Part shown: positions 19,934 to 25,401 of the stretch, in pieces
Layout: every line of letters begins with the position of its first letter
Numbering within the stretch: the first letter of the stretch is position 1
NCBI GenBank assembly: GCA_002167555.2
Contig: NHDL02000005.1
Span: 3,272 to 42,514, forward strand
Origin: Deltaproteobacteria bacterium TMED58
Lineage (GTDB): Bacteria > Desulfobacterota_D > UBA1144
Direction of reading: 5' to 3'
Length of the DNA stretch: 39,243 bases
Translations under genes and position numbers: made by a program
Notes under the pieces: model-generated
Told to the model about the DNA's origin: nothing
The model's input: only the letters and a program-made list of their open reading frames with translations
The model's database searches: none

Positions 19934-21127
19934 TTATTTCTTAGGTCTTCTGATGAATGCCGGAATTTCAAAATGTTCATCATCGCCTAGTGGATGCAAG
20001 TCGTCGATATCAGATTTCTCAGCAGCCTCCACTCCATTCTCAGTTCTATCTTCTAAGATTTCATTATCTAATTCCAAGCTAATTTGGTCTTTATCTTCTT
20101 CCTCAACGCTTACTGTTGATAAATTAGGTCTTGAATTTCCATCTATACCTGTAGCAATTACAGTAATCTTTACTTTATCACCAAGAACTTCATTAACAAC
20201 AAGACCAAAAATAAGTTCAACATTTGGATTTGCTTTAGATTTTATATGGTTACAAGCTTCATTTAACTCATCAATAGTAAAATTACTAGAAGCAGTAACG
20301 TTAATAAGAATCCCAGTTGCCCCTTCTATGGAGATATCTTCAAGAAGTGGACTAGTAATTGCGTTCTCTGCAGCTTCTATTGCCCTCGAAGTACCTTCTC
20401 CTTCGCCAGTACCCATTAAAGCTTTTCCACCACTTTCTTTCATTATTTTTTTAACATCAGCAAAGTCAACATTGATAAATCCAGATCCGACAATTATATC
20501 TGCTATACCTCGAACAGCATTAGTTAATACATCATCTGCCGCTCTAAAAGAATCTAAAATTCCTGAAATTTGTTGAACCTCATTTAATTTATCATTTGGA
20601 ATTACAATCAATGAATCTGCTTCTTTAGCTAACTCTTGAATTCCAAAATCAGCTTGTGAAATTCTTCTATTAGCTTCAAATGTGAAAGGCTTAGTTACAA
20701 TTGCAACAGTTAAGGCTCCTGCATCTTTTGCAAGTTTTGCTACGACGGGGGACGCACCTGTTCCAGTACCACCTCCCATGCCAGCAGTTATAAATACCAT
20801 ATCTGACCCTTGTAACGCTTCTGTTATATCATTTTGGTCTGCTTTAGCACATTCATTTCCTAACTCTGGATTACCCCCTACACCTAAACCCTTTGCTATA
20901 TTTTTTCCGATTTGAATTACGCGTTTTGCTTGTGATTTTTGTAAGTCTTGAAAATCTGAATTTATTGCGATAAATTCAACCCCATCGATTTTATCATTAA
21001 TCATACTGTTTACAGCATTTCCACCTGCACCACCAACACCCACTACCTTAATTTTTGCTCCTAAATTATCAAAGAGGTCTTCCTTTGGCGCCCCTGCTAT
21101 TTCACCAGAAAATTCAAAAGTTGGCAT
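19934..21127 (-). CDS. ftsZ: Cell division protein FtsZ
   Basis: Tubulin signature 'GMGGGTGTGASPVVA', 'GVGGAGGNAVNSMI', C-terminal tail 'IPAFIRR'. Confidence 0.99.
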   Translation of the reverse strand: MPTFEFSGEIAGAPKEDLFDNLGAKIKVVGVGGAGGNAVNSMINDKIDGVEFIAINSDFQDLQKSQAKRVIQIGKNIAKGLGVGGNPELGNECAKADQNDITEALQGSDMVFITAGMGGGTGTGASPVVAKLAKDAGALTVAIVTKPFTFEANRRISQADFGIQELAKEADSLIVIPNDKLNEVQQISGILDSFRAADDVLTNAVRGIADIIVGSGFINVDFADVKKIMKESGGKALMGTGEGEGTSRAIEAAENAITSPLLEDISIEGATGILINVTASSNFTIDELNEACNHIKSKANPNVELIFGLVVNEVLGDKVKITVIATGIDGNSRPNLSTVSVEEEDKDQISLELDNEILEDRTENGVEAAEKSDIDDLHPLGDDEHFEIPAFIRRPKK

Positions 21128-21221: not shown

Positions 21222-22457
21222 TTAGAAAAGGTCTGCAAACCAAGTCTTCATTGAGCTAAAGACCTTCTTAAATACTTGAGCTTCACGAATCCTAATTTTG
21301 GAGCTTTTAGCTGATTCTTGATTATTTGATCCCCAAATTAATAATCCAACACCAGTAGCACATTCAGGTTTTGAAACTAGCTCTTCTAATCCTGTAATTT
21401 GATTTGGAACTCCAAGTCTTACTGGCATATTTAGAATTTTCTGAGCAAGATAATCTGCTCCTTTTATTGCCATGGAGCCACCAGTAATAACGCATCCTGC
21501 AGGAAGCATATCATGATAACCTGATCTCATAATTTCTCTTCTAGCCATACTAAAGATTTCTTCTAGTCTAGGTTCAACTATATTTGCTAATTCTAATTGA
21601 CTAATTTTTTTTCTTCCAGTACCTGCAATTTTATCAATCTTTATTTCATCTTCTCCATCAACAAGATCTGCAGATGCAATTCCGTAACGCTCCTTAATTT
21701 CTTTTGCAACTTGTTTAGATGCACCTAAGCCAAAAGAGATATCGTTATCAAGAAAATCTCCACCTATTGTAATATTGCTAGTATATTTTATTGCACCATC
21801 AGAGAAGACAGCTATGTCAGTCGTCCCCCCACCACAGTCAAGCAGTACCACCCCAACGTCACGCTCATCAGGTGTTAAAACAGCTTCGCTGGAAGCAATT
21901 TGTTCGAGCACTAATGATTGAACATCTACTCCTGAATTATGAACACATTTTACTAAATTTTTCGCTTGTGTAACCTGGGCTGTTACCATATGAATTTTTG
22001 CTTCTAATTTAACTCCATAAAGCCCTACAGGGTCTTTTATTTTTCTTTCACCATCAACTATAAATTCTTGCGGCATTACATGGATGACTTCTCTGTCTGC
22101 AGGTTGAGCACCAGCAGTTGCAGATTCTATAACTCTATCTAAATCTCTTTTAGTAACTTCTCTATTTCTTAGGGTTATCATTCCATGGCCATTAAGACTT
22201 CTTATGTGTCCTCCAGCAATACCAACAATTACACTTGTTATTTCAGTCCCCGCCATTTTCTCAGCGTCCTCTATTGCTTGACGAATTGAATCAACTGTAC
22301 TATCAATATTTAAAACAATTCCTCTTTGTAAACCTTTAGAGGGGTATGAGCTAACTCCAATAATTTCTACATCGCCAGGGGCTCTGACTTCAGCTACTAA
22401 ACATAAAATTTTAGTTGTTCCTATATCTAGACCAACAATTACATTACTATCTGCCAT
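21222..22457 (-). CDS. ftsA: Cell division protein FtsA
   Basis: 'VGLDIGTTKI', 'LDCGGGTTDIAVF', 'CVITGGSMAIKG'; upstream of ftsZ. Confidence 0.98.
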   Translation of the reverse strand: MADSNVIVGLDIGTTKILCLVAEVRAPGDVEIIGVSSYPSKGLQRGIVLNIDSTVDSIRQAIEDAEKMAGTEITSVIVGIAGGHIRSLNGHGMITLRNREVTKRDLDRVIESATAGAQPADREVIHVMPQEFIVDGERKIKDPVGLYGVKLEAKIHMVTAQVTQAKNLVKCVHNSGVDVQSLVLEQIASSEAVLTPDERDVGVVLLDCGGGTTDIAVFSDGAIKYTSNITIGGDFLDNDISFGLGASKQVAKEIKERYGIASADLVDGEDEIKIDKIAGTGRKKISQLELANIVEPRLEEIFSMARREIMRSGYHDMLPAGCVITGGSMAIKGADYLAQKILNMPVRLGVPNQITGLEELVSKPECATGVGLLIWGSNNQESAKSSKIRIREAQVFKKVFSSMKTWFADLF

Positions 22458-22473
22458 TTATGCCATTATAATC

Positions 22474-23139
22474 CTAAAGATTATAATTTACAACACCCTT
22501 ATTTATATTGCTTACATCAATATAAGATTCGTTCATCTGTTTTGTTTTGCTATCTTTTAAAATTATAATAAGATTACTTATTTTCTTTTCAAATTTATCC
22601 TCTCCTAAGTAAATTTCTACCCCTTGGGTTGTAAAGATAGTTACTCCTAGAATCTCATCAAATACAATTTCAGAAATTTCTTTAGTCTCTAATGCTCCCT
22701 TTTTTACCAACAAATTTAATAAAAAAACACCGTCTTTAATTTTATCTTCTGATTCTAGTGACAATATTGGGTAGCTTTCATCTATATATTCTTCAATATT
22801 TCTTAAAAATATAGAATCTTGATCAATATATCCAGTGACATTACCAATTTTTGCGGACATTATAATTTTTTTTTCTTCTACTACAATCTTAATTTTAGTT
22901 AAATTAATTTGCTTAAATGATATATTTTTAATTAATTTAATATTTAATATTCTTTTAGTAGAATCCTCTTTATTATGAATTGCCAATATTTTGCCAACAA
23001 GCTCTGATGTTTTTATTATTTCATCCTTGGGTACGAGTTTGTTTCCTTCAACTGTTACCTCTTTTACAAAACAAAATATAGGAAAATATAGATATAAAGA
23101 TATTAAAGCTAATATAGGTAGAAATATTCTCTTCATCAT
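22474..23139 (-). CDS. ftsQ: Cell division protein FtsQ/DivIB (POTRA domain)
   Basis: N-terminal TM, POTRA-like 'VKEVTVEGNKLVPKDEIIKTSELV'; position between murB and ftsA. Confidence 0.85.
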   Translation of the reverse strand: MMKRIFLPILALISLYLYFPIFCFVKEVTVEGNKLVPKDEIIKTSELVGKILAIHNKEDSTKRILNIKLIKNISFKQINLTKIKIVVEEKKIIMSAKIGNVTGYIDQDSIFLRNIEEYIDESYPILSLESEDKIKDGVFLLNLLVKKGALETKEISEIVFDEILGVTIFTTQGVEIYLGEDKFEKKISNLIIILKDSKTKQMNESYIDVSNINKGVVNYNL

Positions 23140-24053
23140 TCTTCAACTATTTTTACTTCAGTATTCAAAATTGTTCCATCTTTATCTTTAACAATCTTTC
23201 TAATTTTTTGGATTAATGTTTTTATATCTTCTATCTTTGCCCCTCCAGTATTAATTATATAGTTAGCATGAAGTTCAGAAATTTTTGCGCCTCCTATAGA
23301 ATATCCCTTAAGGTTGAGGTCTTGAATAATCTTTCCAGCTTTAGATTCTTTTGTATTCATAAAGACACTCCCTGCGCTAGGATATTCAACAGGCTGTGTA
23401 TTATTTCTATGTCTAATATATGTTTTAATATTTTCTTTAGCTTTTTTTGTATCGCCTTTTTTTAACTGAAATGTGGCTTTTGTTATAATGTCATTTCTTT
23501 TGATAGAGCTATACCTATAATCAAAATTTATTTCATCTTTTTCTACCTCAATCTCCTTATTGTTCCTTAGAAAGAATACAGACTTTAAGCACTCTGATAT
23601 TGTTCCACCGTTGGCACCAGCATTTGTAATTAAAGCTCCACCGACAGTTCCAGGAATTCCAGTGGAGAACTCAAAGCCTACCAGGCCATTTTTTAATGAT
23701 CTATTAAGCACTAAATTTAAAGATGCCCCAGATTCTGCCGTCAAACTTCCGTCTGAAAAAAATCGTATTTTATTTAATTTTTTGGTGCTAATAATAATTG
23801 TTTTTGATAGTTTCACAAATAATATATTTGAACCATTCCCAGATATATAAAACTTGATTTTAAGACTCTTAATTTTTTTTATAAGACTTTTTAATTGTTC
23901 TAAATTATTAGGATAAATAATAATTGGAGTTATGGCACCAACACGCCAAGAGACATAATCACTCATATCATATTCAATAAAATACTTTATTTCGTTAAAT
24001 TCTAGAAAGCTAATTAATGACTTAAATTCTTTTTTTGAGCTGAATGCCAACAT
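23136..24053 (-). CDS. murB: UDP-N-acetylenolpyruvoylglucosamine reductase
   Basis: 'WRVGAITPIIIYPNN', 'GNGSNILF', 'GFEFSTGIPGTVGGALITNAGANG', 'PSAGSVFMN'. Confidence 0.96.
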   Translation of the reverse strand: MLAFSSKKEFKSLISFLEFNEIKYFIEYDMSDYVSWRVGAITPIIIYPNNLEQLKSLIKKIKSLKIKFYISGNGSNILFVKLSKTIIISTKKLNKIRFFSDGSLTAESGASLNLVLNRSLKNGLVGFEFSTGIPGTVGGALITNAGANGGTISECLKSVFFLRNNKEIEVEKDEINFDYRYSSIKRNDIITKATFQLKKGDTKKAKENIKTYIRHRNNTQPVEYPSAGSVFMNTKESKAGKIIQDLNLKGYSIGGAKISELHANYIINTGGAKIEDIKTLIQKIRKIVKDKDGTILNTEVKIVEE

Positions 24054-25401
24054 CTCTTATATCACCTGCCCCCATAGTTAAAATAGTATATTTCTTGTAA
24101 ATAAGTTTGGAAGAAATTTTATTTAGTAATTTTTCCTTATTTTGAAAAAAAAAGTGCTTTTGGGTTTTTTTTCTTTATTTTATTGAATAGTGTTTCAACA
24201 CTTATATTTTTCTTTTCAAAAGCTGAGTATATATCTACTAAATATAAATTTTCCCATTTGCTTAATTCTTTTATGAAATCATTGAGGAGAATTTTGGTCC
24301 GAGAAAATCTATGTGGTTGAAAGATTAATATGGCTTCATTTTTTGAGAAATTTTTTTTAATATTTTCTCTTACTGCACTTATAGCTGTAGGATGGTGTGC
24401 ATAATCATCTATAATTGTGACAAACTTATTGTTAAGAATTGTTTCAAATCTTCTTATTGGTGCTTTACAATTTATTGTTTTATTTTGAATTTTTTTTACT
24501 GTTAATCCTAATTCTAGTGCAAGTATTATGCTCGCTACTAAGTTATAACAATTATAATCACCATACAATTTAGAGTTAAAAATTCCTATTGATTTGTCTT
24601 TTATGAATATTTGAACCTTGGAATATTTATTATTTAATATTTCAAATGAATAATCGTTGTATTTGCTAAATCCTTTACCAAATTTAATAATTTTTTGCTG
24701 CGGCAGAGTTTTAACTAATTTATTTAGCATAGGAGAGTCATTGTTAACTATGCATTTTCTTTTAGTATTTATAATAAATTTTTTAAAAGCCGAAATTAAT
24801 TTTTTTTCGTCTTTATAGAAATCCAAATGATCATTATCAATATTAGTTATTAATGATATTTCCGAATCAATCTCATTAAAGCTATTGTCACTTTCATCCC
24901 CTTCAATCAAACAAAACTTTGATTTTCCAAAGTAAAAATTTGATCTAAGAATCTTATCTTCAGCACCAAAAAAAGTTGTTGGATCAATATGAGATTTATT
25001 TAAAATGAAGTTTGATATAGAGGTTGTTGTACTTTTACCATGACAACCAGTTATTGTAATATTTTTCATTTTATTGGTAAACAGACCCAATGCTTTACCA
25101 CGCTTTAAAATACTTATCTTATTTTTTTTGCTATAATTAACTCAGGGTTATTTTCCTTTATAGCCGATGAATAAATAATTAAATCGGGATTTTTTATATT
25201 TTCTGATGAATGTAATCCGTATATCGTGCACCCAATCTTTTTAAGTTTTTTTATTATTGGATCTTGCCCTATATCTGAGCCTGATACTTCAATATTGTTT
25301 AACTTTAAAAAAAAAGCTAATGAACTCATACCTATGCCACCAATTCCTATCATATGAACACTTTTAATTTTTCTTTTATTAAACATCTTGTAAAATTCCA
25401 T
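24022..25401 (-). CDS. murC: UDP-N-acetylmuramate-L-alanine ligase, split by two apparent frameshifts
   Basis: Three frame segments: 25401-25114 ('HMIGIGGIGMSSLAFFL'); about 25130-24137 ('ITGCHGKSTTTS', 'IDDYAHHPTAI', 'FQPHRFSRT'); C-terminus in the first frame again ('LTMGAGDIRDVGIQLKKRI*', stop 24024-24022). Shifts map to A8 (25122-25129) and T9 (24145-24153) on the coding strand. Confidence 0.85.

Follow-up and report, generated by a model that had tools for sequence, protein, structure and literature searches.

The single-copy murC gene (UDP-N-acetylmuramate--L-alanine ligase) of the window, which is the whole stretch of 39,243 nucleotides analysed here, is spread over two reading frames as assembled (24022..25401, minus strand), and the two breaks are probably one-base run-length errors in the assembly, the cell itself possessing an ordinary single-frame murC. 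The technical origin of these errors is what we infer from sequence comparisons: wrong lengths at a run of eight A (A8) and at a run of nine T (T9) would have been introduced during the sequencing, the assembly or the consensus building of an environmental, multi-strain genome. Technical error is favoured because the broken genes are conserved, intact in relatives and, in the case of murC, present in one copy.

Reading frames and conservation of the murC segments

The first frame extends from 25401 to 25114 on the minus strand and encodes an N-terminal fragment of 95 amino acids (25114..25401) ending in IIAKKIR, with a premature stop at 25114, three codons past the A8 run (25122..25129). This run, read directly and compared with relatives, is one A short of the conserved reading frame; with one A added the protein reads AKKNKIS, the equivalent of which is AKKNKIR in the relative G004. 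The second frame, containing a middle ORF of 317 amino acids from a TTG (24137..25090), carries KKNKISILKRGKALG and proceeds up to KALFFSK and the stop at 24137. These 317 codons are the correct MurC frame. The T9 run (24145..24153), likewise read directly and compared with relatives, has one T above the conserved reading frame, and past it the C-terminal tail of MurC (24022..24144) is again in the first frame and reads TILTMGAGDIRDVGIQLKKRI before the stop. As assembled, therefore, MurC has two frame breaks and no single continuous reading frame. Both runs, in minus-strand reading, lie on the sequence where the original prediction had placed them, and translation of each frame confirmed the path that it had traced (a stop after A8, one A gained, an end at 24137, one T skipped). 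Its statement that no other complete coding sequence of the window is broken agrees with the comparison to three same-genus genomes, within the coverage of that comparison. The term compensating, which it used for the two frameshifts, holds for net length, where the shifts cancel; it is misleading in that two decoding events would be needed before the second shift could offset the first, and the DNA as written gives the 95-residue fragment, with nothing cured.

The N-terminal, middle and C-terminal domains of Mur ligases were found by Pfam in the order expected for MurC, with Mur_ligase (E 4.5e-18) in the first piece and, in the second, the ATP-binding Mur_ligase_M (5e-19) and the C-terminal Mur_ligase_C (9.1e-11). 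As in other bacterial MurC, the gene sits in a cluster of cell-wall and division genes of the dcw type and the motifs GCHGKSTT, DDYAHHP and QPHRFSRT are conserved; the difference is the spread over two frames, which is confined to the source assembly. The amino acid identity to MurC of the same-genus genomes G003, G001 and G002 is 67-69%; for the middle piece, comparison with intact MurC from the closest relatives gives 55-69%. When each segment is compared in its own frame with four same-genus genomes, identity amounts to 59-69% for the N-terminal, 64-73% for the middle and 76-81% for the C-terminal segment, the middle one falling in the mid-range of the window's genes. In all three segments the differences from same-genus genomes are concentrated on third codon positions, and this codon-position divergence shows no sign of pseudogene drift; judged by substitution pattern, all three look selected.

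A MurC match was obtained in 12 of the family's 13 other genomes, all 12 being intact in one frame, while the thirteenth (80% complete) gave no match; this is the comparison with closely related genomes that the original prediction had proposed as a check. The frameshift is thus common to none of these 12 relatives, same-species strains aside, and conserved recoding is ruled out, murC being unbroken in every one of them. At both sites the relatives have the same protein but mostly lack the runs themselves; at the first of the two, G004 carries an in-frame A8. Since the segments are conserved and the relatives intact, the murC frame would be either intact in the cell or very recently broken. 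The original prediction had also named an intact second murC or mpl elsewhere as an observation that would speak against it. A profile search of the source assembly (92.8% complete) with Mur_ligase_M detected neither: of five matches, four lie in the cluster of the window at the positions of murE, murF, murD and murC, and the fifth, on contig 4, is taken to be a putative folC-like gene. No relatives of MurC were found among viral contigs.

The source assembly and its breaks at homopolymer runs

The source assembly comprises 1,011,758 bases (1.01 Mb) in six contigs. The closest named records are metagenome-assembled genomes (MAGs) of marine Dadabacteria, two of them named Candidatus Dadabacteria bacterium UBA1144, and marine pelagic Dadabacteria have been described as streamlined oligotrophs (PMC8115339). 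The source genome is thus that of a streamlined marine Dadabacteria of the UBA1144 type and not of an endosymbiont, and the analogy with AT-rich endosymbionts drawn in the original prediction does not fit.

In 560 kb (55%) sampled from this assembly (L031-L058, outside the window) there are 961 single, scattered N, and 512 of the 711 N located in long ORFs fall on third codon positions. We read these third-position N as strain differences masked in the consensus, which would make them a mark of merged strains. In a large set of marine MAGs the merging of per-sample contigs is documented (PMC5769542), and the source genome may possibly have come by the same route. Within its contig the window forms a stretch free of N, which places murC outside any visibly merged stretch and counts against the reading as run-length errors. 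In two N-rich stretches of the source genome (L033 near 4900 and L050 near 4190) the frame breaks away from homopolymers; these breaks are probably merging artefacts.

The survey of breaks covered the same 560 kb and, from three other assemblies of the genus, 755, 387 and 379 kb. It searched for proteins that switch frame along their match to a relative, and all candidates of the loose survey were inspected alike in all four genomes. Several candidates that extended at the 5' end into an adjacent gene or tRNA were set aside, as were the two in the N-rich merged stretches. Besides murC, five genes of the source sample show a one-base frameshift at A/T runs of 8-10. These are an unnamed gene without a Pfam match at an A8 (L047 near 8016), the only one of the five based on two reference genomes, and four others that rest on one reference genome each: trpB at an A9 (L053 near 15598; PALP match and our own reading of the sequence), an NtrC-like regulator at an A9 (L054 near 18070), in which Pfam places the response-regulator domain across both frames, trpC at an A10 (L055 near 15610; IGPS domain by Pfam), and a second unnamed gene without a Pfam match at a T9 (L057 near 8240). 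The breaks in L055 and L057, together with the T9 break of murC, were not counted by the strict automatic rule and were read by eye.

Among runs of at least eight, the ratio of broken to intact is 7:263 in the source assembly versus 1:470 in the three same-genus genomes (p 0.0045), i.e. a broken share of about 2.6% versus 0.2%; under the strict automatic rule alone it is 4:263 versus 1:470 (p 0.06). Within the source assembly, runs of at least eight differ sharply from runs of 5-7, which are almost never broken (p 3e-7). The breaks are thus limited to long runs and occur in several unrelated genes of one assembly, as expected for technical indels. Two of the seven shifts are -1 and five are +1. 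The murC gene contains seven runs of at least eight and is therefore a large target; the chance of two breaks falling in one gene is about 0.06, which is mildly unusual. A further +1 shift at a T6 may be present in L042 near 2610, as judged against one reference genome. In the sampled parts of the three relatives a single break of this kind was found, in a conserved thioredoxin-like gene of G001 (L143:16914-16922), where three reference genomes support a frameshift at a nine-base run.

Weighing of the explanations

The case for run-length errors combines the position of the murC breaks, on runs eight and nine bases long, the conservation of the three segments, the intact relatives and the five further breaks at runs of 8-10. 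The pattern is that of homopolymer errors in draft assemblies, namely one-base shifts in both directions, at long runs only, in unrelated conserved genes with intact relatives, although the rate is low here. Against it stand the presence of two breaks in murC and the dependence of four of the five other breaks on one reference. Moreover, short reads seldom err at runs of the A8 to T9 range, which would count against run-length error if such reads were used. Replication slippage has the same length dependence, A/T runs of 8-10 being its hot spots, so that the census alone cannot separate it from technical error; in this case both runs would have mutated to give a real, recent broken murC allele, common in the population or sampled from it and without rescue. 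This is unlikely, as peptidoglycan requires murC and no second murC or mpl was detected in the assembly, the three segments all look selected, and five other conserved genes, including trpB and trpC, would have to be broken simultaneously. A division of the enzyme into separately translated fragments assembling into a working MurC is scarcely credible: the first break does lie near the border of the N-terminal and middle domains, but the TTG at 25090 is the only start of the second ORF, the conserved tail (about 38 codons) has no start ahead of MGAGDIRD, and none of the 12 relatives has a split murC.

Slippage of the RNA polymerase or ribosomal frameshifting at both runs, giving enough full-length MurC, has precedents in AT-rich symbionts, where cell-wall genes are among those concerned and 12-50% of transcripts are corrected at long poly(A) runs (PMC5009743), and in Blochmannia vafer, with eight frameshifted genes (PMC3017870). 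Similarly to these rescued genes of Blochmannia and Buchnera, murC is an otherwise conserved gene with A/T runs in a small AT-rich genome; it differs in that its host is no endosymbiont, two opposite shifts occur in one gene, no relative shares them, and the case is known from DNA alone. The A8 run contains an A_AAA_AAA heptamer on which ribosomes could slip by -1, and the sequence 3' of both runs is conserved, but RNA structure downstream of either run does not exceed that of shuffles (z 0.17 and 1.14), and T9 would need the opposite, +1 shift. One and the same message would have to gain a base at A8 and lose one at T9, and the yields multiply. Furthermore, most indels arising in transcription at A/T runs are insertions, and in Buchnera no frame restored by transcription error was seen (PMC5574713); as five of the seven shifts have an extra base, rescue there would need a deletion, the rare direction of RNA polymerase at such runs (PMC5574713). 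Taken with the lack of the frameshift in all 12 relatives having murC, this makes decoding by slippage improbable. Still less probable is the wider proposal that a streamlined marine Dadabacteria tolerates broken alleles of murC and at least five other genes through efficient two-way transcription or translation slippage at A/T runs of 8-10. Among the options listed in the original prediction (sequencing indels, real mutations or slippage), sequencing indels are consequently the best supported, slippage being disfavoured by its need for opposite shifts and by the fact that no relative needs it.

Wider meaning and neighbouring genes

If the breaks are technical, conserved genes in AT-rich marine assemblies can appear lost or split at runs of at least eight, and claims of gene loss for streamlined lineages are affected; if they are real, slippage rescue would reach beyond host-restricted symbionts to marine plankton.

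In the same window, the gene at 21222-22457 (minus strand), in the ftsA position beside ftsZ, shows 98-99% protein identity and 83% DNA identity between species of the genus. For the adjacent genes at 19934-21127 and 22474-23139, protein identity is about 91% and 56-62%, respectively. Judged from these values, the pattern is one of strong conservation at the protein level and not of recent transfer.
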